Origin: Phascolarctobacterium faecium DSM 14760
Lineage (GTDB): Bacteria; Bacillota; Negativicutes; Acidaminococcales; Acidaminococcaceae
Reading direction: 5' to 3'
DNA: 35,290 nt
Assembly: GCF_003269275.1 (NCBI RefSeq)
Contig: NZ_QLTS01000006.1
Location: 1 to 35,290, forward strand
Under the pieces are notes generated by a model. It made no database searches. It was not told the DNA's origin and saw only the letters and a program-made list of their open reading frames with translations. Numbering within the stretch: position 1 is the stretch's first letter; every line of letters begins with the position of its first letter. This document shows positions 7,134 to 35,290 of the stretch, in pieces. Position numbers and translations under genes: made by a program.

Positions 7134-8429
7134 TTAGACTGGGGTTACTTTGTATGGCCGCCATAAATTATACAGGGGCAGCAGATAAAGATAAAAGGCA
7201 AACAGGATCGAAGCGTTGCCGGCGCCTACGGTGGCGAGCGGTACAGCGCAGGCGATCGACCAGGGGATGAGCGCCGCTACTACGATAGTGCTGTTTTCCA
7301 GGTCCAGGGCCAGCTGCTGCATATTGTCAGCGCTGTCCTTGTGCAGCTGATAGGTGAGGATGCTGCTGAGGGTCTGGTTGCAGGTTGCCATACTTGTGAT
7401 GGTGGCTGTAAGCAAAATGCTGCCGTACGGCGTTATTTTTTCTCCAAGCTGTGCAAGGCGGGCCTGCGTAGTATTCAAAAAGCCTGTTGCTTCAAAAATC
7501 CCGGCGTAAGCGGAGGAAAGGATAATTATGACGCTGACGGTGAACATGGAAATGATACCGCCGCCGCTGAGGATCTGGGCCAGCTGCTGATCAGCAGGGT
7601 AAAAGCCGTAGAACATGATCGAGCCAAGTTGGGCGGGAGTGATATCCTGAAGGAAAAGGCAGAGCAGACTGCCGGTAATGATGCTGGCTGCCATCGTCAG
7701 CCTGACATTGACCTTGTACAATGAAAGAACGATGATCAGCAGCGCTGGAATAGTGGTAGTCCAGTGCAGATCGAAGTTTTGCGGAAAGAGTGAGTACAGG
7801 TCGGCTGTGCCGGTGTTGCCGGTACCGGAAAATCCCAGCAGGGCGTAAAGCAGGCAGGTGACTGAAAAAGGCAGCAGCGTTGATTTGAACATATTTTTGA
7901 TATTACAGTAAATATCAGTCTGCGTCAGTTCGCTGATCAGAAGGGCGCTGGTCGACATCGGTGAACAGCGGTCGCCGAAATAGATGCCTGATAAGATAGC
8001 GCCGCCGGTAAAGGTGGGATCGATACCATTGGCTTTGGCGATAGACATACAGATGATGCCGATCGTGGCCGCAGTACCGAAAGAGGTTCTTGTTAAAAGT
8101 GAAATGAAACAACAGAGCAGAAAAACTATCAAAATGAATACCGATGGTATGAGCAGGCCCGACATATGGTAAATAATGAACGGTATCGTGCCGCAGGCCC
8201 GCCAGACGGCGGTGATCATACCGATAAGGATAAAGATGAAGAGGATATTTTTGATCGTGCGGATTCCTCGTCCGGACATTGTCAGTACCTGTACCGGCGT
8301 ATGTCCCTGCCGGAGGGCGTAACCGAAAAACATCAGATAGCCGAAAAGCAGGGCCCAGAGAATGGAGTAGCCTGCCAGAATGCAGCTGAGCAGTATAAAG
8401 GAAAAGATAACGATGATAATAGCTTCCAT
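7134..8429 (-). CDS. NhaC-family Na+/H+ antiporter
   Basis: A 431-residue inner-membrane protein with about eleven hydrophobic segments. The NhaC family is indicated by SFGTAATIGIICMSIA, then the conserved GAILSGIYFGDRCSPMSTSA, with SELTQTDIYCNI just after. Family members exchange Na+ for H+, or couple malate/lactate or amino acid exchange to sodium; which applies here is not visible. Slightly shorter than the 450-480 residues of most NhaC proteins. It is a monocistron with its own promoter (8491-8519) and a shared terminator. Confidence 0.85.
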   Translation of the reverse strand: MEAIIIVIFSFILLSCILAGYSILWALLFGYLMFFGYALRQGHTPVQVLTMSGRGIRTIKNILFIFILIGMITAVWRACGTIPFIIYHMSGLLIPSVFILIVFLLCCFISLLTRTSFGTAATIGIICMSIAKANGIDPTFTGGAILSGIYFGDRCSPMSTSALLISELTQTDIYCNIKNMFKSTLLPFSVTCLLYALLGFSGTGNTGTADLYSLFPQNFDLHWTTTIPALLIIVLSLYKVNVRLTMAASIITGSLLCLFLQDITPAQLGSIMFYGFYPADQQLAQILSGGGIISMFTVSVIIILSSAYAGIFEATGFLNTTQARLAQLGEKITPYGSILLTATITSMATCNQTLSSILTYQLHKDSADNMQQLALDLENSTIVVAALIPWSIACAVPLATVGAGNASILFAFYLYLLPLYNLWRPYKVTPV

Positions 8430-8490
8430 AAAATTTCTCCTGCGGCAGAACGCCGTAATTTTTTAGAGGTCAGTCAGTAATAATACTATT

Positions 8491-8519
8491 ATCATACTGC
8501 TTGCTGCGATGCTTGTCTA
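8491..8519 (-). promoter_or_regulatory. Promoter of the NhaC-like gene
   Basis: On the minus strand, TAGACA (8514-8519), exactly 17 bases, then TATGAT (8491-8496), about 60 bases before the start codon. Confidence 0.55.
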
Positions 8520-8523
8520 ATAA

Positions 8524-8565
8524 TAAATAAGGCGCCGGGCAAATATTTGCCCGGCGCCTTATTTA
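8524..8565 (-). terminator. Rho-independent terminator of the ferredoxin gene
   Basis: A perfect palindrome: GGCGCCGGGCAAAT pairs with ATTTGCCCGGCGCC, flanked by AT runs. It lies just past the ferredoxin stop at 8572. Because it is perfectly symmetrical it may also insulate the other strand. Confidence 0.8.
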
Positions 8566-8571
8566 TTATTA

Positions 8572-9276
8572 TTATATTTCTTCCAGAATCTGACCGTCGG
8601 TGCTGATGGTGACGACCTGCCAGGGGATGATTTTACCGCTTTGCTGCAGCGCTGTTCTGACCGCCTGTTCCATACCGCCGCAGCAGGGTACTTCCATGCG
8701 GACGACGGTAACGCTTTTGATATCGTTTGCAAGCAGGATCTCAGTCAGCTTGCGGCTGTAATCTTCGTTGTCCAGCTTGGGACAGCCGATAAGCGTGATA
8801 TGGTTTTTTATGAATTTACGGTGGAAATCGCCGTATGCGAAGGCGGTACAGTCGGCGGCAACCAGCAGCCTGCTGTTTTGCAGGTAGGGTGCGTGCGGGT
8901 TGACCAGCTTGATCTGGACAGGCCATTGCTGCAGCTCGCTGTTTTGGGGCGTGGCTGCCTGCTGCGCTGGTGCAGGTTCCTGCTGATGCAGTAAACGGGC
9001 CTGTGTGCCGGGGCAGCCGCAGGGAAGTTCAGCTTCCTGGCTGGCTTTATTGGCCAAAACGGCAGCTTCGTCATAGGCTGCGGCTTCACGTACTTCAAAG
9101 GTTATGGCATTGGTAGGGCAAACGGGCAGGCAGTCGCCCAGGCCGTCGCAGTAATCGTCTCGCAGCAGGGCTGCCTTGCCGTCCACCATGCCTATGGCCT
9201 GTTCGTGGCAGGCCTGGGCGCAGAGACCGCAGCCGTTACATTTTTCCTGATCTATAGTGATTATTTTGCGTAACAT
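8572..9276 (-). CDS. 4Fe-4S ferredoxin-domain protein, Crp-linked
   Basis: A 234-residue cytosolic iron-sulfur protein. The N-terminus (1-60) is a ferredoxin module: CNGCGLCAQAC gives Cys13, 16, 19 and 23, and YCDGLGDCLPVCPTNAI gives Cys43, 49 and 53. A second region holds CGC at 86-88, followed by an Ala/Gln/Pro-rich linker (90-118). The C-terminal domain (119-234) has Cys143, Cys165 in IGCPKL and a Cys-Cys pair at 198-199 in VPCCGG. This architecture is common in anaerobic Firmicutes, typically next to a Crp-type regulator and sometimes a hybrid-cluster protein. Electron transfer in oxygen or nitrosative stress is a reasonable guess, but the partner is unknown. It is divergent from the Crp gene. 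Confidence 0.85.
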   Translation of the reverse strand: MLRKIITIDQEKCNGCGLCAQACHEQAIGMVDGKAALLRDDYCDGLGDCLPVCPTNAITFEVREAAAYDEAAVLANKASQEAELPCGCPGTQARLLHQQEPAPAQQAATPQNSELQQWPVQIKLVNPHAPYLQNSRLLVAADCTAFAYGDFHRKFIKNHITLIGCPKLDNEDYSRKLTEILLANDIKSVTVVRMEVPCCGGMEQAVRTALQQSGKIIPWQVVTISTDGQILEEI

Positions 9277-9333
9277 GATGAACCTCCTGTTGTCTTTCTG
9301 TTTTTATTATAGTACGATAGTAGGAAGAAAGCT

Positions 9334-9347
9334 GTTGTTTTTACAAC
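9334..9347. promoter_or_regulatory. Candidate Crp/Fnr-family operator
   Basis: A perfect palindrome, GTTGT-TTTT-ACAAC, with the 5-4-5 geometry of Crp/Fnr-family sites. It lies immediately upstream of the ribosome binding site of the Crp-type gene at 9362 and within the divergent ferredoxin promoter region. A minus-strand TATAAT at 9306-9311 may drive the ferredoxin gene. Autoregulation is inferred. Confidence 0.45.
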
Positions 9348-9361
9348 GGAGGTAAAGAAGA

Positions 9362-10024
9362 ATGGATAAATATTTGCAGATCATAGCGTCGGCATCTTTG
9401 TTCCGCGGTATTGCGAAAACAGAGATCGCGGCAGTGCTGCAGAATCTGGATGCGCAGCTGAGGGTCTATCCCCGGAACAGCTTTATCTGGCAGCTGGGCG
9501 AGCAGGTAACGACAGCTGGTTTTGTCGTTGCTGGCAGCGTGCATATCCTGCGCGAGGATTACTGGGGGCGGCAGAATATTCTGGCGCAGCTGGGCTGCGG
9601 GCATCTGTTCGGCGAGGTCTATGCCTGTCTGCGGCAGGTGCCGCTGACGGTGAGTGTGGCCGCGCCTAATGGAGCTACGGTGATCTTTCTGGACATTAAA
9701 CGTCTTCTGGCGGGTTCGGCTCGCAGCGAAGCTGAAAACAGGCTGCTGCATAATCTGCTTCTGCTGATGGCGGAGCGCAATCTGTTTCTGACTCAGAAAA
9801 TGGAATATCTGACGAAGCGGACGACGCGGGAAAAGCTGCTGGCGTACCTTTCAGAACAGGCGCGCCTGCAGCAGAGCAATAAGCTGACGATACCCTTTAA
9901 CAGGCAGCAGCTGGCCGATTTTCTGGCGGTAGACCGCAGCGCGATGTCAGGTGAGCTCAGTAAGATGCAGGCGGACGGACTGATCAGGTATAAAAAGAAT
10001 AATTTTGAGCTTTTACAAAAATAA
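9362..10024 (+). CDS. Crp/Fnr-family transcriptional regulator
   Basis: A 220-residue regulator with an N-terminal cyclic-nucleotide-binding-like beta-barrel (about 15-115; GSVHILRED, GHLFGEVYACL), a long dimer helix, and a C-terminal winged helix (about 150-218; NRQQLADFLAVDRSAMSGELSKM as the HTH). The N-terminal cysteine cluster of oxygen-sensing Fnr is absent, so it probably senses a small molecule or redox state in another way. It is transcribed divergently from the ferredoxin gene, and a palindrome sits just ahead of its ribosome binding site. The ferredoxin gene is its likeliest target. Confidence 0.9.
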   Translation: MDKYLQIIASASLFRGIAKTEIAAVLQNLDAQLRVYPRNSFIWQLGEQVTTAGFVVAGSVHILREDYWGRQNILAQLGCGHLFGEVYACLRQVPLTVSVAAPNGATVIFLDIKRLLAGSARSEAENRLLHNLLLLMAERNLFLTQKMEYLTKRTTREKLLAYLSEQARLQQSNKLTIPFNRQQLADFLAVDRSAMSGELSKMQADGLIRYKKNNFELLQK

Positions 10025-10052
10025 AACCAGCCGCTTCAAGCGGCTGGTTTTG
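10022..10052. terminator. Bidirectional Rho-independent terminator
   Basis: AAAACCAGCCGCTT / AAGCGGCTGGTTTT stem between the convergent Crp gene and the Gate-domain gene. Confidence 0.85.
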
Positions 10053-10064
10053 CTTATACTGTTA

Positions 10065-11132
10065 TTACATATAAAGGAATTGCAGACAGGTAGCAAATAA
10101 AGCTGCCGTTAAAACCTTGATGACTGCGCCGATAATGGCTGCCGTCATGGCCTCGCGTTCGGTAAGGTCGGTACAGCCGCTCCAGATAGCGGGGATCTGC
10201 CCGAAGATGACCTGCAGCGGGAAGCCGGAGGAAGCCAGGATATACGAGCCGACGACCAGCGGCGGGGCGATTGTGGCGGCAATTTCCTTCAGCTGGGCCA
10301 TTGCCAGCGACCCGCCGACTAAAATAGAAACAGAACCGGTTTCGGCATGGATGTTGAAGGCATTGAGCATGGTATTGATACCGGCCTGAATACCGGTCCA
10401 CAGACCGAAATGGTCTAAAGCGCCGATTGCCGCAAAAACTACGGCGCAGGAGGGAATGATGAGCAAAAACAACAGCTCAGCGCCTTCCTTGGCCGCATTG
10501 AAGATGGTCGGCAGAAAACCGGTTTCAGGTGTGAAGCGGGGCAAGTCTTCAAGCGAGACAGCTTTGGTGTCGCGCCAGATAGTGAGACGCAGAAGCAGCG
10601 GCGTCAAAAGCACCGGCAGGAACACCGCCAGAAAAACGACGACCCAGACGGAAACCTTGGCGGCGTTCAAAGCAATCAAGCCGAAAACGAAGATCGCAAA
10701 GGAGGACTGCGACTGCATCATGGTAGCGATAGCGATTTTCTGCTCGTCTTTGGTGGCTTTGGATTTTTTGAGGATCGGGCCGCCAATACGGCCGGCAGCG
10801 TTGATATCGCCGAGGATATTATATACGGACGGTACGGCTACAGCGGCGTTGACACCGATGACCTTCATCAGGGGCACGAAAATACGCATCAGGGCGTCGG
10901 TAAAGCCAAGGCGTTCCAGCAGGCGCCCCATGGTAACGCTGATGATGATCGCGATACCGATGGAACCTGTGATATAGACCTTGATGATAATAGGGGCGGC
11001 ATGGTTGAACATATTGTTGAACAGGTTCCCGATACCGCCGGGGTTAACTACCAGCATCAAAAAGGAAAAGGCGACTAAAAACAGGCCTACGTATTCGATC
11101 AGTTCGATCTTTCTTTTTCCACCATTCATCAT
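10065..11132 (-). CDS. Nucleoside-recognition (Gate) domain membrane protein
   Basis: A 355-residue polytopic membrane protein with about nine hydrophobic segments. Two Gate-like halves can be picked out: one around residues 55-160 (AVPSVYNILGDINAAGRIGGPIL, then KIAIATMMQSQSSFAIF) and one around 230-340. The family takes its name from nucleoside transporter gates and includes SpmA/SpmB and FeoB-like parts, and substrates are rarely known. It is the last gene of a three-gene operon: the Nif3-like gene ends 11 bp upstream and the FAD oxidoreductase precedes that. Two adjacent ATGs follow GGAGGGG, so the second (11129) is an equally good start. It probably moves the substrate or product handled by its operon partners. 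Confidence 0.8.
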   Translation of the reverse strand: MMNGGKRKIELIEYVGLFLVAFSFLMLVVNPGGIGNLFNNMFNHAAPIIIKVYITGSIGIAIIISVTMGRLLERLGFTDALMRIFVPLMKVIGVNAAVAVPSVYNILGDINAAGRIGGPILKKSKATKDEQKIAIATMMQSQSSFAIFVFGLIALNAAKVSVWVVVFLAVFLPVLLTPLLLRLTIWRDTKAVSLEDLPRFTPETGFLPTIFNAAKEGAELLFLLIIPSCAVVFAAIGALDHFGLWTGIQAGINTMLNAFNIHAETGSVSILVGGSLAMAQLKEIAATIAPPLVVGSYILASSGFPLQVIFGQIPAIWSGCTDLTEREAMTAAIIGAVIKVLTAALFATCLQFLYM

Positions 11133-11143
11133 AAACCCCTCCG

Positions 11144-12154
11144 TTATTCTGTTTTTGGCTTAGGCAGATAATTGCGCGCCATGGTTTCGCCGTAGTTTTC
11201 GATGTGGGTGCAGCCGCAGTGGTCCAGCGGCAGGCTTACCATACGTTCGCGGAAGATGTGGATATCCAGCTCGGGGATCTGCAGACGCAGAGCCCAGGCC
11301 AGGGGGATTCCGTTTTCTAAGATCTCCAGCGCGTGAGAGTTGCCTGCGATCAGGTTCAGGCCCAGTTCTTCGGCTTTTTTGACCAGCGGGTCGCCGGGCA
11401 GCGGTCTGCTGATCGTGCAGACTACGGTGTTGGCTTCGGGGTATTCGGCGTAGGCTTTTTCCAGGTCCTCGGCCGAGAAACCGGTATGCGGGAAAACAGT
11501 GATGGTTTTGCCCAGCTTGTTGTCGGGGCTGCCGACAAAGATTTTGGCGCGGGCTGCGATCGAGGTTTCGTGGATCTCGGTACAGCCGCGGATCTGACGT
11601 TCAGAGGTGAGCACGCGTGATTCGATATCAGTGCCCATGATCGTATCGATACGGTTGAGCAGGTCGCCCAGTGTTTCTACTTCCGGCAGGGCGTTGCCAT
11701 ACCAGACGATCTTACCGGGGACACCGCCAAAGCGGATGTTGACGTGTTTGGCGCAGCTGCCGTGGATCCAGGCGATACCGGGATGCAGGCCGTGAAAGGC
11801 TTCGTGCAGCTCAAAAACAGCCAGATGATACAGATTAAAGTAATCTCTGGCGGTAACGCCGCCGGTATTGGAGCCTTCCGCGATTGGGTGATGGGCGATA
11901 AGGCAGTCGATGCCTGTTGCGCCGGCCAGTTCAATGGCGCTTTCAGTCAGGGTCATCATAACCGCTACTTTTTTGACGGGCATATCTGGATCGCCCCAGA
12001 CGAGACCGGGCAGTTCGGTCACAGCTTTGCCGGGGATACCGGAAGTCTTGGTAACTACGAAGGGGTTAGCGCCGCCGTAACCGAAGGAGTCGGTGATGAC
12101 GCGGCCGCCGGTAATAACGTCGAGGGCTTTGAGGATATCGCGTACAGTTGCCAT
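11144..12154 (-). CDS. Nif3-like putative dinuclear metal protein
   Basis: A 336-residue cytosolic protein resembling the Nif3/YbgI family. Residues 63-92 (KKVAVMMTLTESAIELAG, then DCLIAHHPI) match the Nif3 pattern of a strand, a helix and the metal-binding His-His pair (88-89). Near the C-terminus, NLIAGNSHALEI resembles the second metal-binding His/Glu segment. The middle region is longer than in YbgI and may contain the inserted domain seen in larger members. Nif3 proteins have been annotated as GTP cyclohydrolase type 2, but their reaction is largely unsettled. It sits 18 bp after the FAD oxidoreductase and 11 bp before the Gate protein, so it is surely co-transcribed. Confidence 0.65.
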   Translation of the reverse strand: MATVRDILKALDVITGGRVITDSFGYGGANPFVVTKTSGIPGKAVTELPGLVWGDPDMPVKKVAVMMTLTESAIELAGATGIDCLIAHHPIAEGSNTGGVTARDYFNLYHLAVFELHEAFHGLHPGIAWIHGSCAKHVNIRFGGVPGKIVWYGNALPEVETLGDLLNRIDTIMGTDIESRVLTSERQIRGCTEIHETSIAARAKIFVGSPDNKLGKTITVFPHTGFSAEDLEKAYAEYPEANTVVCTISRPLPGDPLVKKAEELGLNLIAGNSHALEILENGIPLAWALRLQIPELDIHIFRERMVSLPLDHCGCTHIENYGETMARNYLPKPKTE

Positions 12155-12172
12155 CAGATTATCACATCTTTC

Positions 12173-13453
12173 TTATAAGTTTGAGAAAATATTGGTGCAG
12201 CCTGCCGCTTCGACATGGGCCTTGATAGCGTCATCGTCGGTGCTGTAAAGATTTTTGGCCTGCATCCGTTCAAAATAAACTGAGCCGGAGAAGGTGTATT
12301 TTTTATTGCGTGTCTCGGCGTCCAGCATTTGCTTGACAACGTAGCCGATAAATTCGCCGATAGCTGTGGTTTCAGGCAGGATGACTGGCGCCAGACCGTT
12401 GGCGGCTCTGGCGGCGTTATGCCCGGCCAGCGAGCCGCTGACGATAGCTTCCGTATGGCCTACCATTGCTCCGGCACGTTCGCCGCCACAGAAAAGGTTG
12501 GTTTTGCCGTCAGCCTTTAAGGAAGCATCGACATGGGCGAAATTAAAGTAACGCATAGAGTTGCCTTTGCCGCCGGACAGTGGGTCTTCGAAGCGGGACC
12601 GTTCAAAGCCGGGGATCATACGCAGCTCTTCCAGCGGATAATAAGGCGTCATCAGCTTGGCTGAGCCGGTGTCCAGCAGAACGATGTTGTCGGCATAAGC
12701 GTCGAGCGCATACTGCTGGCAGGCTTTCATAGCCAGCTTTTCTTTATGTTTTTTGATTGCTTCGGGAATCGGAACGACGCAGCAGCCTGTCTTTTCCAGC
12801 TCGGTAACGATCTCGGGGGCCAGTGATTCTTTGAACAGCTTACAGGAGCCGCTCATGGCGCCGAGACCGGTAGGCTTTTCTGCTGTCCATTCTTCCACGC
12901 CGGACTGTGTGGTGACGCTGACGCGGGGGCCGAAGCTGTGGCAGCGCAGGATACACATGGCGCAGCCGTTGCCGTGTTTATTGCAGTTGAGCGGCATAGC
13001 CGAAGAACCGCTGACATCTACGAAAGCGTCGGCAGTAAGGCGCAGGCCGCTTTTGGTAATAACGGCGGTGATCGTGTCGCCTTCGTATTCCGTTTTAACG
13101 GCCGGATCGGCCATCAGCAGCTTGATGCCGCGGCTCAGGAGCAGTTTTTTGACCGCGGGCTCGATTTTATAGATATTGTAAAGAGTAGCGTGTTTATGAC
13201 CGGGAAAATCCATGTTTTTGTGAGTTGCAACGGCTTCCATAACTGTAAACAGGTCGCCTGCGCCCATGGCGATACATTCTTCAGCGGCAGTATAGCGGCC
13301 GTTGTTGCGGAAAATCCCGCCGACCAGCCCTGTGCCTAAAAGCATATCGGTACGTTCGAGCAGAGTTACGTCGGCACCGGCTTTTTCAGCAGTAAGAGCT
13401 GCGGCACAGCCGGCCCAGCCTCCGCCGATAACGACGATTTTTTTCTTGGTCAT
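12173..13453 (-). CDS. FAD-dependent oxidoreductase with Cys-rich motif
   Basis: A 426-residue flavoprotein. The N-terminus has a Rossmann dinucleotide motif (VVIGGGWAGCAAA, then LLERTD), and the C-terminal FAD contact GHTEAIVSGSLAGHNAAR is like that of GidA/TrmFO-type enzymes. Residues around 165 hold GNGCAMCILRCHSFGP, a CxxCxxxC-type cysteine cluster that could be redox-active or bind a metal. This protein is neither MnmG nor TrmFO by length and context. It is the first gene of the operon with the Nif3-like and Gate membrane proteins. GGAGGAATCAGG precedes the ATG. TATAAT at 13488-13493 on the minus strand may be its -10. The substrate is unknown. Confidence 0.82.
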   Translation of the reverse strand: MTKKKIVVIGGGWAGCAAALTAEKAGADVTLLERTDMLLGTGLVGGIFRNNGRYTAAEECIAMGAGDLFTVMEAVATHKNMDFPGHKHATLYNIYKIEPAVKKLLLSRGIKLLMADPAVKTEYEGDTITAVITKSGLRLTADAFVDVSGSSAMPLNCNKHGNGCAMCILRCHSFGPRVSVTTQSGVEEWTAEKPTGLGAMSGSCKLFKESLAPEIVTELEKTGCCVVPIPEAIKKHKEKLAMKACQQYALDAYADNIVLLDTGSAKLMTPYYPLEELRMIPGFERSRFEDPLSGGKGNSMRYFNFAHVDASLKADGKTNLFCGGERAGAMVGHTEAIVSGSLAGHNAARAANGLAPVILPETTAIGEFIGYVVKQMLDAETRNKKYTFSGSVYFERMQAKNLYSTDDDAIKAHVEAAGCTNIFSNL

Positions 13454-13587
13454 CCTGATTCCTCCAAACGGGGTAGATTTTTATTTAATTATACCCCTTT
13501 AGTATAACAAATTAATAATTAAAGAGTAAAGCACATAAAGTATGTATACATATAAAAAATTGCATGCTGTACTGGCGCGGCCGGTTG

Positions 13588-13596
13588 TGGTAAAAT
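13588..13596 (+). promoter_or_regulatory. Candidate extended -10 promoter of the racemase gene
   Basis: TGGTAAAAT fits an extended -10 (TGn then TAAAAT at 13591-13596), 40 bases before the GTG start. No good -35 is present. Confidence 0.35.
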
Positions 13597-13635
13597 AAAC
13601 GAATAAAAACAGTTCTTGCTGGTGGAGGGATCAAG

Positions 13636-14349
13636 GTGACCAAGTATAAGAAAAATGGTAAAAAACTGGGTGTGCTGGGAGGAATGGGGCCTGCTGCGGC
13701 GGCAGAGTTCCTGCGGCAGCTGGCGGCAAAGTGTCCGGCGGCAACAGATCAGGAGCACCCTGTGGTATATATGATCGGGGATTGTGAGATACCTGACCGC
13801 AGCACAGCGATCTTCGGCAAAGGCGAAAGTCCGGCGCCGGTTTTGGAAGCGCGGCTGCGCCAGCTGTGTGATATGGGGGCAGAGGTACTGGCGGTGCCCT
13901 GCAATACGGCCCATTATTTTATTGATGATTTTAAAGCTGCTCTGCCGCAGCCGTTAGTGCATATCATTGAAGAAACTGTCCTGGCGGCCCAGCGGCTCAA
14001 TCCTGAAGGCGCTTGGATGCTGTCGACACATGGTACGCGCGCCAGCGGTCTGTATCAGAAATATGCCGATAAACACGGTTATACCTTATATCTGCCCAAT
14101 GAGGAGCAGGCTGAAAAAGCGCAGCAGGCTATCTTTTATGTCAAAGCCGGCGAGCTTGACCGGGCAGGCGCTGTGACTAAAGCTCTCGTAGAAGAACTGT
14201 GGCGCGAGCGTGACCTTCCTGTGATGACGGCCTGTACCGAGCTGCCGTTAGGATACGCGGCTTCCGACCTGCCGCTGGACAGAGAGGTTTCCAGTATCGG
14301 GGCTCTGGTCGATGCCTGCATCAGGATGCTGTATGATGAAGTAAAATAA
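13636..14349 (+). CDS. Aspartate/glutamate-type amino acid racemase
   Basis: A 237-residue PLP-independent racemase family protein. It shows the N-terminal LGVLGGMGPAAAAEFL, the first catalytic cysteine in VPCNTAHYF (near residue 86) and the second in TACTELPL (near 198), the two-base arrangement of Asp/Glu racemases. Aspartate is the likeliest substrate by family, though cysteate or other acidic amino acids are possible. The start is GTG at 13636, with GGTGGAGGG seven bases upstream. It diverges from the FAD/Nif3/Gate operon and is a single-gene unit closed by a terminator. Confidence 0.88.
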   Translation: MTKYKKNGKKLGVLGGMGPAAAAEFLRQLAAKCPAATDQEHPVVYMIGDCEIPDRSTAIFGKGESPAPVLEARLRQLCDMGAEVLAVPCNTAHYFIDDFKAALPQPLVHIIEETVLAAQRLNPEGAWMLSTHGTRASGLYQKYADKHGYTLYLPNEEQAEKAQQAIFYVKAGELDRAGAVTKALVEELWRERDLPVMTACTELPLGYAASDLPLDREVSSIGALVDACIRMLYDEVK

Positions 14350-14355
14350 GCATAA

Positions 14356-14392
14356 AGAAAAGGACTATCTCTATGAGATAGTCCTTTATTTT
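14356..14392. terminator. Bidirectional Rho-independent terminator
   Basis: AAAGGACTATCTC / GAGATAGTCCTTT stem with T runs, between the convergent racemase and TPM-domain genes. Confidence 0.85.
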
Positions 14393-14396
14393 TGTT

Positions 14397-15152
14397 TTAC
14401 CAGCGCCTGCTGGAACCGCCGCCGCCGCCGGAGCCTCCTCCGAAACCGCCGCCACCGCCTCCGCGTCCGCCGCCGCGCAAAAGTGCGAGCAGGATGAACT
14501 GAGTGATGATGCCGCCGAAGAACATATGGTCAACGATGACGAGTACGATCAGGCCGACTGCGATCAGTGCCTTCATCCAGCCAGGCATCGGTGTATCGCC
14601 TGTGCCCTGCTGGGCGCCGCCGTTATAACGCACGCCTTCCAGCTTGACATCATAACTTTTGGCTACGGTAGTTGCGACAGTCAGATAGCCCTGCGCGATG
14701 CCTTTTTCGTACTGGCCCTGTTTAAAGTAGGGCAGCATCTGCTGGTCCTGGATCCGTCCCGTCAGGCCGTCGGGCAGAACGCCTTCCAAACCGTAACCGA
14801 CTTCGATCCGCGATTGTCTGTCATCGACAGCTACTAAGATCAGCGCGCCGTTATTCTTTTCTTTATTACCAAGTCCCCATTGCCGCAGCAGTGTCAGTCC
14901 ATATTCGTCAATGGGCTGGCCGTCAAGTGTTTTCACCGTAACTACGGCGACCTGTGCGGTGGTTTTATTATCCAGATCCTGTCCGATGGCATTAAGGGCC
15001 TGACGGGTCTGCGGTGATAAAACACCGGCATAGTCCTGCACGTAGATGCCGGAGGACACGCTTGGCTTAGGTGGTACCTGGATCGCCGCTTCTGCCCCGA
15101 CGGCAAAGACCGCCTGGATCAGAAGCATCAAAAGGACGAGCCAACGTTTCAT
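14397..15152 (-). CDS. TPM-domain (YgcG-type) exported membrane protein
   Basis: A 251-residue protein with an N-terminal signal peptide (about 1-22), a TPM domain (about 35-160; YVQDYAGVLSPQTRQALNAIG, DNKTTAQVAVVTVKTLDG, DRQSRIEVGYGLEG), a transmembrane region near 188-220, and a C-terminal tail that is almost only glycine with a few serine and arginine residues, ending RRW. The TPM domain faces outside the inner membrane, and the family is repeatedly paired with LemA. Here lemA ends 22 bp upstream. A role in envelope maintenance is suggested by the family, but no reaction is established. Confidence 0.9.
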   Translation of the reverse strand: MKRWLVLLMLLIQAVFAVGAEAAIQVPPKPSVSSGIYVQDYAGVLSPQTRQALNAIGQDLDNKTTAQVAVVTVKTLDGQPIDEYGLTLLRQWGLGNKEKNNGALILVAVDDRQSRIEVGYGLEGVLPDGLTGRIQDQQMLPYFKQGQYEKGIAQGYLTVATTVAKSYDVKLEGVRYNGGAQQGTGDTPMPGWMKALIAVGLIVLVIVDHMFFGGIITQFILLALLRGGGRGGGGGGFGGGSGGGGGSSRRW

Positions 15153-15174
15153 AATCAGTGAGCTCCGTTATCGG

Positions 15175-15729
15175 TTAAAATTGTACTTGCGGAACAGTTT
15201 TTGCGCTTTCGTCTGCTTTAAAGTAATCACGGGCGTCAAAACCGAACATACCGGCATAAAGAACAGTCGGGAAGGATTTGATCTTGGCGTTGAAGCCCTG
15301 AACTGCGCCGTTGTAATCCATACGGGCTACGGCAATGCGGTTTTCCGTACCGGCCAGCTCGTCCTGCAGCTGCAGGAAGTTGGTGTTGGCTTTCAGGTCA
15401 GGATAGTTTTCTGCGATCATCAGCAGGCGGGAAAGAGCGCTGCTCAATTCGCCGTTGGCCTGGCTGGTTTCGGCAACCGTCTTGGCGCCGCCTAATTTAG
15501 CGCGGGCATCGGATACAGCTTTAAAAACGTCGCTTTCGTGGGCAGCATAGCCTTTAACGGTATTGACCAGATTGGGAATCAGGTCGTTACGGCGCTGGAG
15601 CTGGTTTTCGACCTGCGACCATTTGCCGTTGACGTTTTCATTCATGGAAACAAGGCTGTTGTAGCCGCTCATAATAATGCCGGCGAAAATAACAACGACA
15701 GCGATAATAATCATTAAAGTTTTGTTCAT
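15175..15729 (-). CDS. lemA: LemA family protein
   Basis: A 184-residue membrane-anchored protein. One N-terminal transmembrane helix (about 4-24, IIIAVVVIFAGIIMSGY) is followed by the helical LemA domain with its typical segments: VNGKWSQVENQLQRRNDLIPNL, ENYPDLKANTNFLQLQDELA and YNGAVQGFNAKIKSFPT. Normal length. It is the first gene of a lemA-TPM operon with a near-consensus promoter (15776-15804) and a good ribosome binding site (GGAGGT). Function is not established beyond its link to TPM-domain proteins. Confidence 0.93.
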   Translation of the reverse strand: MNKTLMIIIAVVVIFAGIIMSGYNSLVSMNENVNGKWSQVENQLQRRNDLIPNLVNTVKGYAAHESDVFKAVSDARAKLGGAKTVAETSQANGELSSALSRLLMIAENYPDLKANTNFLQLQDELAGTENRIAVARMDYNGAVQGFNAKIKSFPTVLYAGMFGFDARDYFKADESAKTVPQVQF

Positions 15730-15775
15730 TTTTTATTCTACCTCCAAAGATTTTTTTACTTAATGCTTATCTTCC

Positions 15776-15804
15776 ATTGTAACTAAAGCGGGGGCTGCTG
15801 TCAA
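15776..15804 (-). promoter_or_regulatory. Promoter of the lemA-TPM operon
   Basis: On the minus strand, TTGACA (15799-15804), exactly 17 bases, then TACAAT (15776-15781). Confidence 0.75.
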
Positions 15805-15891
15805 ATGGAGCAGCGCCTGAAAATGTAAAATATCTGTGTTATTATGTATTTGTTTTATAATATTGCTGTGAGCTTAATTGAAGCAGAGCGT

Positions 15892-15918
15892 TTGCCAGCA
15901 GATTCCTTGTGGTATAAT
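15892..15918 (+). promoter_or_regulatory. Promoter of the CoA-transferase gene
   Basis: TTGCCA (15892-15897), a short 15-base spacer, and a perfect TATAAT (15913-15918). Its position inside the 5' extension of the longest open frame argues for the downstream GTG start at 15953. Confidence 0.5.
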
Positions 15919-15952
15919 GTTGTTAGAAGATTATAAAGAAGGCGGTGTCGAC

Positions 15953-17113
15953 GTGGGTGCACTTGACGGTATCAGGGTTCTGGATTTGTCGCGGCTTTTG
16001 CCGGGACCGTATTGCAGTATGCTTTTGGCGGACTTCGGAGCGGAAGTAATAAAAATCGAAGAACCGGGGCGCGGCGATTATTCGCGCAGCTTCCCGCCAT
16101 TTCAAAACGGGTTCGGGTACTGGCATTTGCAGCTGAACCGCAATAAAAAAAGCGTTGTATTGGATTTAAAAAGCGACGCCGGCAGAGCGGCCTTTTTAAA
16201 ATTGGCGCAGACGGCGGACGTAGTCTTGGAAAGCTATCGACCCGGCGTTTTAAAGCGTTTAGGTATTGATTATGAGACCGTGAGCAGGCTGAATCCGAAA
16301 ATAGTTTATTGCGCGATCACAGGCTATGGCAAGCGGGGACCATTGGTCGACCAGGCTGACCACGATATCGGCTATGTGAGCCTGGCGGGCATCACGTCGA
16401 TGAGCGGCGAACCAGGAGGCAGGCCGGCGATACCTGGTATTCTGATGGCGGATATGAATGCGGCGCTGATGGCGGGCATGAGTATCCTGATGGCTGTGCG
16501 CCATGCTGAGCAGACCGGGATCGGACAGGAAATAGACATCTCGCTGTATAATACGGCGCTGACCCTGATGCCGGGCGCTGCCAGTTTATATTTCGGCAGC
16601 GGTTTCGTTGCCGAACGTGGCAATAACTGGCTGACCGGTGCATATGCCAACTATAATATTTACGAAACGCGGGACGGCCGTTATGTTTCGGTAGGGTGCC
16701 TGGAGAAAAAATTCTGGAGCAACCTTTGCCTGGCCTTAGACCGCGCCGACCTTATCGATGCTCTGGACGATGAATCGCAGCATGAGCGCGTTAAGTACGA
16801 GCTGACCGAGATTTTCAGGACTAAAACCATGCAGGAGTGGACGGCTTGTTTGGAGGGGAAGGACACCTGCGTAACGCCGGTACTGAATTTTGACGAAGCT
16901 TTGGCTGCGGAGCAGACCCGTGCTAATGCAATGGTGCTGACGGTCGAAGATGAAGAGATCGGCACTTATAAGCAGCTGGGCTTTGCCATGAAAATGTCGG
17001 CAACGCCGGGAACGCTGCAAAAACGTGCTCCCAGACTGGGTGAGGATACGGAAGCAGTTCTGCGCGGCTGCGGTTTGAGCGAGGCTGAGCTGGACCTGCT
17101 GACAAAAGAATAA
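15953..17113 (+). CDS. CaiB/BaiF family CoA-transferase
   Basis: A 386-residue class III CoA-transferase moving CoA between organic acids. Visible family features are the N-terminal LDGIRVLDLSRLLPGPYCSMLLADFGAEVIK, the KKSVVLDLKS segment, AITGYGKRGP, the catalytic aspartate in ILMADMNAALMAG, and the C-terminal RAPRLGEDTEAVL. The GTG start at 15953 is preferred: an AGAAGG-type site lies ten bases upstream, and a promoter with TATAAT at 15913 would sit inside the longer frame beginning at 15878. It is a single gene with no acyl-CoA dehydrogenase or hydratase nearby, so the acid substrate (carnitine-, formate-, succinate- or bile-acid-type) cannot be inferred. Confidence 0.9.
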   Translation: MGALDGIRVLDLSRLLPGPYCSMLLADFGAEVIKIEEPGRGDYSRSFPPFQNGFGYWHLQLNRNKKSVVLDLKSDAGRAAFLKLAQTADVVLESYRPGVLKRLGIDYETVSRLNPKIVYCAITGYGKRGPLVDQADHDIGYVSLAGITSMSGEPGGRPAIPGILMADMNAALMAGMSILMAVRHAEQTGIGQEIDISLYNTALTLMPGAASLYFGSGFVAERGNNWLTGAYANYNIYETRDGRYVSVGCLEKKFWSNLCLALDRADLIDALDDESQHERVKYELTEIFRTKTMQEWTACLEGKDTCVTPVLNFDEALAAEQTRANAMVLTVEDEEIGTYKQLGFAMKMSATPGTLQKRAPRLGEDTEAVLRGCGLSEAELDLLTKE

Positions 17114-34417: not shown

Positions 34418-35221
34418 ATGCTGAAAATAGAAAATCTGTCTGTTGCCGTACAAGGCAGACAGATTCTTCACGATATTAACCTGCACATTAAACCGGGTGA
34501 GGTCCATGTTTTATTCGGGCCTAACGGTACCGGTAAATCTACTTTGATCGGGACGATCATGGGCTTTGAACGTTATGAGGTATTAAGCGGTAAAATCTAT
34601 TTTAAAGGTCATGATATTACCGAAGCTCCTTGTTATGAGCGGGCCCGTTTAGGTGTAGGCGTAATGATCCAGCGTCCGCCGACGATCCGCGGCTTGTCGC
34701 TGCGCCATATGATTGAGATCTGTGGAGCTACGCCTCAGGAAACGGAGCAAATGGCAAGATGGATGGGTTTGGCTGATTTTCTCGACCGCAGTGTCAATGA
34801 AGGTTTCAGCGGTGGTGAACTGAAACGTTCGGAGCTTCTGCAGCTGATGGCGCAAAAACCTGATATGCTGCTTTTAGATGAACCTGAATCAGGTGTCGAC
34901 GTGGAAAATATCGCACTTGTAGGACGGGCTGCCAACTACATTCTGCATAACGAGCCCTGTGGCGGCACCGGCTGTGATAAACCCTGCTGTGCCCATAATC
35001 TTGACTGTGACACTTATAATCCGCTCAGCAGTCAGCGCAGCGGTCTGATTATTACTCATGTCGGGCATATTTTGAAGTATGTGCCGGCTTCGCATGCTCA
35101 TATTTTGTATCAGGGCACTTTAAGCTGTACCAGCGGCGATCCTTTGGATGTATTGAGCTGTATCAGCAAGACCGGTTATGAGAAATGTGTGAATGGCGGC
35201 TGCAGGAGGGGAATGAAATGA
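34418..35221 (+). CDS. sufC: SufC Fe-S cluster assembly ATPase with a cysteine-rich insertion
   Basis: A 267-residue ABC ATPase of the SufC type. Walker A is FGPNGTGKST (33-42), the Q-loop is MIQRPP, the signature is GFSGGELKR (129-137), Walker B and D-loop are MLLLDEPESGVD (150-161), and the H-loop is IITHVGH (211-217). SufC drives the SufBC(D) scaffold that builds Fe-S clusters. Between D-loop and H-loop, at about 178-207, is a segment with Cys181, 186, 190, 191 and 197 that ordinary SufC lacks. The C-terminal tail adds Cys237, 248, 257 and 262. It overlaps the next gene by ATGA. GAAAGAGGG precedes the start. Confidence 0.92.
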   Translation: MLKIENLSVAVQGRQILHDINLHIKPGEVHVLFGPNGTGKSTLIGTIMGFERYEVLSGKIYFKGHDITEAPCYERARLGVGVMIQRPPTIRGLSLRHMIEICGATPQETEQMARWMGLADFLDRSVNEGFSGGELKRSELLQLMAQKPDMLLLDEPESGVDVENIALVGRAANYILHNEPCGGTGCDKPCCAHNLDCDTYNPLSSQRSGLIITHVGHILKYVPASHAHILYQGTLSCTSGDPLDVLSCISKTGYEKCVNGGCRRGMK

Positions 35222-35290
35222 GTGAACAGGTAAATCTGCAGGAAGCGCTGGTTAAAAAAGCTGCTTTTGGCAATGATATCGATTTGGAAA
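35218..35290 (+). CDS. SufB/SufD-family scaffold protein (5' end only)
   Basis: An open frame starts at ATG 35218, overlapping the sufC stop, with GGAGGGG eight bases upstream, and runs off the window after 24 codons (MSEQVNLQEALVKKAAFGND…). The N-terminus alone does not name the family. The call rests on position and on coupling to sufC, which is nearly always followed by a sufB- or sufD-type gene. Confidence 0.6.
   Translation, partial: MSEQVNLQEALVKKAAFGNDIDLE

Follow-up and report, generated by a model that had tools for sequence, protein, structure and literature searches.

Results and discussion

A cysteine-rich ATPase next to smsB

Why would the ATPase of an iron–sulfur cluster assembly system carry two segments crowded with cysteine? 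The question is raised by a gene close to the end of a 35,290-nucleotide stretch of Phascolarctobacterium faecium DSM 14760 (contig NZ_QLTS01000006.1, positions 1 to 35,290; hereafter the window). The gene, smsC (34,418–35,221, plus strand), encodes a protein of 267 residues that we assign as the ABC-type ATPase/scaffold of a SUF-like minimal system (SMS), based on its open reading frame, a score below the SufC equivalog cut-off, the alignment of an AlphaFold2 (AF2) model, and a tree.

The ATPase motifs are present and mostly invariant across the alignments of relatives. They comprise Walker A (GPNGTGKST, G34–T42, at 34,517–34,543 on the plus strand, placed by the sequence, the MJ0035 alignment and the pocket residues reported in PMC12192291), Q85, FSGGE (130–134), LLLLDEP (150–156) and the H-loop His214 (35,057–35,059, plus strand), which is invariant in both alignments of relatives (A1, A2). 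The protein contains 11 cysteines, at positions 72, 102, 181, 186, 190, 191, 197, 237, 248, 257 and 262. As the earlier note on this DNA had described, five of them (181–197) lie between the D-loop (SGVD, 158–161) and His214, and four fall in the last 31 residues (237–267). Cysteine makes up 122 of 8474 residues (1.4%) in the 22 other long ORFs of the window. Against this background, the binomial P for at least five cysteines in 17 residues is 3.3e-6, or about 8e-4 over ~250 positions, and for at least four in 31 residues it is 1e-3. A chance cluster was ruled out by these values together with the parsimony step counts given below.

The start of smsB (35,218–35,290, plus strand), recognized from its ORF and neighbors, overlaps the smsC stop in an ATGA and is truncated where the window ends, at a scaffold gap flanked by the same sequence on both sides. 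The copy past the gap encodes 404 aa (L009:7414–8625) and scores 196.9 bits with the NCBIfam SufB model and 180.9 bits with SmsB (NF052511), both below cut-off. Just past the window end, a unit of ~4.66 kb stands in tandem (L009 ~7393–12055 and 12050–16711) with three base differences between the copies; besides smsB, the units hold what we take to be a MerR-like regulator, a UbiD-like gene and the start of a transporter. The repeat may have arisen by recent duplication or may be an artefact of assembly. The genome has two SUFBD_core matches, smsB and its near-identical tandem copy. Because both are smsB copies, no SufD was found: there is no further SUFBD_core match in the genome and no such ORF among the neighbors.

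An SmsB-like ORF adjoins smsC in all 34 loci inspected, loop-bearing and loop-free. The SmsC matches at L151 and L174 sit inside long open frames of 677 and 663 aa, each interrupted by a single TAG, as though smsC and smsB shared a frame with only that stop between them. The earlier note had also pointed to the lack of SufS/SufU beside the gene. None adjoins it, but another contig of the genome encodes a NifS/IscS-type desulfurase (NifS) together with a clostridial-type NifU/IscU-type scaffold, each over its cut-off. The NifU- and NifS-type genes (L041:998–3213) adjoin an oppositely oriented gene for an Rrf2-family regulator.

The ATPase is SmsC rather than canonical SufC

The gene product had previously been named SufC, which is also its best named match. 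Judged from its sequence, the protein is SmsC of the SUF-like minimal system and not a canonical SufC. It scores 178.9 bits with the NCBIfam SufC equivalog TIGR01978, below the cut-off of 212.8. In a tree of bacterial rows, without archaeal SmsC and with long branches flagged by the program, a 100/100 branch splits 74 SmsC-type rows from three canonical SufC.

Structural comparison of the AF2 model ranks SufC first (E. coli 5awf, Z 26.5; T. thermophilus 2d2e, Z 24.6), with M. jannaschii SmsC at Z 24.5 (9h7x) and 22.5 (9h78). The alignment behind this model consisted of the window protein and 39 of the 79 usable loci, namely L046, L047 and 37 SufC-like proteins; it is thus mostly SufC and has no loop-bearing relatives. 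Mean pLDDT is 88.9, and loop residues 182–196 fall below 50. The two canonical SufC proteins share the ABC fold and motifs with the window protein but have neither the cysteine-rich loop nor the C-terminal cysteine site; their partner is SufD, and SufC is not thought to hold a cluster, as stated in passages of PMC12192291. A canonical SufC with an unusual insertion is therefore scarcely credible, given the score below cut-off, the genome without a SufD match, and a tree placement that stands despite the long-branch warning.

Named genomes were scanned with sequence patterns that SufC shares. Among the matches listed, 78 of 80 loci were SufC-like and only L046 and L047 SmsC-like; also among the matches listed, and with L114 dropped from this count, 74 of 77 SufC-like proteins have 0–1 cysteine in the whole chain (the other three have 2, 2 and 4). 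Identity of the window protein to SufC-like loci is at most 39% in the 37 aligned. None of the six peptide patterns used matched a viral contig.

The C-terminal cysteines probably correspond to a known cluster site

The SmsC proteins of M. jannaschii (MJ0035; 9h78, 9h7x) and Methanothermococcus thermolithotrophicus resemble the window protein in being ABC ATPases with a SufB-like partner and a C-terminal cysteine site. In both, three C-terminal cysteines are reported to hold a [4Fe-4S] cluster (PMC12192291, PMC12584684). They are C218, C239 and C242 in M. jannaschii SmsC, where the pocket includes P40 and binding of ATP and cluster is described as mutually exclusive (PMC12192291); the Methanothermococcus protein, there called SufC, requires C218, C237 and C240 for its cluster (PMC12584684). 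The earlier note had assumed that this ATPase normally supplies no cluster ligands. In SmsC proteins that have been studied, it is this subunit that holds the cluster, and so a cysteine tail is unsurprising.

The C-terminal region of the window protein (35,105–35,218, plus strand) contains C237, C248, C257 and C262. C237 and C257 are found in all 75 SmsC sequences counted, and C248 in 63 of the 75; the count includes the partial L197 and excludes L192 and the three canonical SufC, and SmsC without C-terminal cysteines may be under-represented in it because the relatives were gathered by a profile (A1) of the clade and its kin. The ligands were paired with those of M. jannaschii by pattern, as the MJ0035 PDB alignment covers chain residues 9–220 and ends before them. 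P35 aligns with the proline of GPNG in MJ0035, which we take as P40 of the cluster pocket. Since C237 and C257 occur in all 75 sequences and the SmsC ligands are published (PMC12192291, PMC12584684), we regard the tail as the probable counterpart of the known SmsC [4Fe-4S] assembly site, an assignment well supported by homology. The metal or Fe–S role once proposed for both cysteine segments is thus well grounded for the tail and plausible for the loop.

The last two putative ligands are spaced C257-x4-C262 rather than as CxxC. MJ0035 has CxxC (C239, C242), whereas the clade of the window protein has Cx4-6C. The motif CxxC is reported in 292 of 415 archaeal SmsC, and the number, position and spacing of the cysteines vary (PMC12192291). 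Since spacing varies, the absence of CxxC does not exclude membership of SmsC. Against a universal role of the site, the minimal SUF system is reported as not required in Methanosarcina acetivorans (PMC10500019), and ligands have been proposed in SmsB for Thermococcus kodakarensis (PMC12442378).

The cysteine-rich loop is specific to one clade

The five-cysteine segment is part of an insertion defined by alignment (residues 179–207; 34,952–35,038, plus strand) between the D-loop helix and the H-loop strand. It consists of a block with C181, C186, C190, C191 and C197 (34,958–35,008, plus strand) and an invariant Asn-Pro-Leu (NPL). MJ0035 has no cysteine-rich insertion at this place in the aligned stretch 9–220, only a short loop with one cysteine. 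Other bacterial SmsC (loop-free class members, other families of the phylum and the Desulfobacterales protein L046) are 45–65% identical to the window protein (18 rows) and share C237 and C257, but their insertion site is shorter, often rich in Lys/Arg, and holds 0–2 cysteines.

SmsC was found in 46 of 380 genomes of the class (E <= 1e-60). The cysteine-rich loop is present in 26 of these, three (genus g15) have a cysteine-rich tail instead, and 17 have neither. The carriers, 24 in the family of the window and two in another family, span 13 genera. In a phylum sample of 398 genomes, 30 others matched at E <= 1e-60; the loop occurs in none of the 29 loci examined, which have 0–2 cysteines at the site, L192 being truncated there. 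From 99 extracted proteins, 20 were removed as duplicates, the partial L192 and L197 were left out, and the tree was built from 77 rows with the loop and end columns removed.

The 26 loop rows and the three g15 rows form one clade (100/99), in which g15 is nested beside two loop rows that have one additional tail cysteine (99/81). The most parsimonious history, read from this sequence tree, would be one gain of the loop on the 100/99 branch and one nested loss in g15. The earlier note had asked whether the insertion is clade-specific or peculiar to this sequence; with 26 carriers in one clade, it is clade-specific. After C257, g15 proteins carry 4–6 cysteines, compared with one in the window protein and two in the sister rows of g15. 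This exchange of loop for tail is one event and is unreplicated. The g15 SmsB proteins (L164, L217, L036) are shorter and lack an N-terminal KKxxxGxDxDL-like stretch that is kept in most other SmsB aligned.

The two carriers of the other family (L162, L163; genus g83) have a loop-bearing smsC that nests (100/95) with one row from the family of the window, with smsB adjoining in both. SmsC occurs in only 2 of 17 genomes of the family of g83 (1e-60), the other 15 having none. Because of this nesting and sporadic occurrence, smsCB in g83 is best read as a probable horizontal transfer of the pair.

All 46 SmsC examined outside the loop carriers and g15 have CxxC (as GY/F-x-x-C-x-x-C), and all 26 loop carriers and the three g15 rows carry Cx4-6C. 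The gain of the loop and the change from CxxC to Cx4-6C map to the same single branch; as a single event on one branch, the coincidence is only suggestive. We found no account of the loop among the matches listed in searches of openly accessible main texts, and the word "insertion" is absent from the main text of PMC12192291 and PMC12584684. The published survey of SmsC, in the main text of PMC12192291, treats the C-terminal region. The loop seems to be an undescribed addition to a known protein.

The loop cysteines appear to be selected

Across the 26 carriers, C191 is kept in all, C186 in 24, C190 in 23, C181 in 21 and C197 in 15, and the Asn-Pro-Leu after the block is present in 26 of 26 with 0 parsimony steps. 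No loop has fewer than 3 Cys or fewer than 4 Cys+His. In order along the chain, the five cysteine columns require 4, 1, 3, 0 and 4 steps (mean 2.4), compared with a mean of 8.2 for the 23 other non-NPL loop columns (Mann-Whitney P 4e-4, a contrast that may be inflated as MAFFT tends to align cysteines) and 1.6 for the core. The loop cysteines thus seem to be selected, as judged from these step counts. Both cysteine segments are kept in relatives, which disposes of the idea that the cysteines are not conserved.

Fe–S assembly systems in the family

SmsC was found in 27 of 59 genomes of the window's family. Among these 27, a NifU_N match is absent in 14, and an Aminotran_5 match better than 1e-55, the bound set for a desulfurase, in 12; at a bound of 1e-60, G002 (2.4e-60, a partial match) switches side. 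Three of the 12, G001 (100% complete, loop), G015 (98%, loop) and G014 (98%, tail), have SerC, a transaminase, as their only Aminotran_5 match at 1e-20; they show no NifU_N match and, among the matches listed, no second SufC-like one at 1e-30. Because these matches are missing, SmsCB seems from sequence searches to be the sole Fe–S scaffold detected in the three genomes, and no cysteine desulfurase was found there.

G025 encodes a NifS-like protein that is divergent (235.8 bits, cut-off 530.75), and in G009 a protein of the desulfurase family (424.3 bits, cut-off 377) occurs without NifU_N; a desulfurase is therefore not missing everywhere. No link between loop and NifU_N was seen in the 24 family carriers (13 with and 11 without a match). 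At 1e-30, 37 family genomes divide into 22 with SmsC only, one with SmsC and a SufC-like protein, ten with a SufC-like protein only, and four with neither. NifU_N proteins occur here and there in these groups.

Proposed role of the loop

ABC ATPases have a common strand order, which we used with the secondary structure of the model to place the base of the loop. It would lie where the H-loop strand (208–212) begins, on the sheet edge across from the one near the nucleotide.

Our preferred reading, which we put forward tentatively and hold at a little below an even chance, is that smsC and smsB encode a scaffold in which the loop serves as a selected, flexible accessory thiolate site for iron, sulfide/persulfide or a second labile cluster, exchanging with the C-terminal site. 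By this proposal, the two proteins would form an SmsC2B2 scaffold that builds [4Fe-4S] clusters. C237, C257 and C262, perhaps with C248, would by homology be a labile assembly site beside Walker A, where cluster and ATP would exclude each other. The loop would bind its iron, sulfide/persulfide or cluster and exchange it with this site while ATP drives the SmsC dimer to open and close. Since the predicted base of the loop is on the other edge of the sheet from the nucleotide, such exchange would need flexibility, as the low pLDDT suggests.

This reading is consistent with the adjoining, overlapping smsB in a genome without SufD, with the low rate of change in the cysteine columns (2.4 against 8.2 steps) and four or more Cys+His in every one of the 26 loops, and with a history of one gain and one nested loss in which C237 and C257 persist in 75 of 75. 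It also accords with the Cx4-6C spacing of all 26 carriers and the three genomes that lost the loop, against CxxC in the 46 others, with the cysteine-rich tail of the genus g15 that lost the loop, with the lack of another scaffold found in G001, G015 and G014, and with the M. jannaschii SmsC precedent as reported in PMC12192291. Several observations weigh against it: the gain of the loop and the CxxC change share one branch and the exchange of loop for tail happened once, neither being replicated; AF2 leaves the loop disordered, and its start would be across the sheet from the nucleotide edge; carriers occur both with and without a NifU_N protein; MAFFT alignment favors cysteine columns; and a set of four Cys/His also suits zinc.

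The last point leads to the main rival, a structural or regulatory zinc knuckle (Cys4/Cys3His) that stabilizes SmsC or an interface and stands outside cluster chemistry. The 26 of 26 loops with at least four Cys+His, the C-P-H motif in both three-cysteine loops (L024, L028) and a compact block of 19–24 residues closed by the invariant NPL would fit such a knuckle. The cysteine count (3–5) and spacing vary, unlike in a fixed knuckle, in g15 the loop is replaced by a tail adjoining the cluster site, and AF2 gives no confident fold in the loop; we consider zinc rather unlikely, though a serious competitor.

Within the preferred reading of an accessory thiolate site, a more specific form would be a two-site scaffold, in which a second labile iron or Fe–S site in the loop feeds or relieves the remodelled C-terminal site and couples ATP-driven motion of the dimer to hand-over without a separate carrier. 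We regard this form as unlikely.

A sensor of redox state, oxygen or metal, in which the loop thiols oxidize or bind metal and so brake the ATPase or the contact with SmsB, is a distinctly less probable account. An adjacent CC pair in at most 23 of the 26 carriers, the many thiols, the predicted disorder and the exclusive binding of ATP and cluster reported for M. jannaschii SmsC (PMC12192291) would suit it. The loop is also kept where SmsCB is the only scaffold found, which speaks against a sensor. A neutral, tolerated insertion with meaningless cysteines is very improbable: apart from its Cys and NPL positions the loop evolves fast (8.2 steps per column), and it was lost once, but the Cys columns take 2.4 steps and NPL 0 in 26 rows, and the carriers belong to 13 genera and two families.

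SMS has been proposed as the ancestor of SUF, and not until 2025 was its ATPase subunit reported to hold a cluster. If the accessory-site reading is right, a bacterial clade would have acquired a second, selected cysteine site on the SmsC ATPase and changed the primary site on the same branch. As some genomes of this clade seemingly have SMS only, it may provide proteins with which to study cluster loading and hand-over where a carrier and a cysteine desulfurase are lacking.
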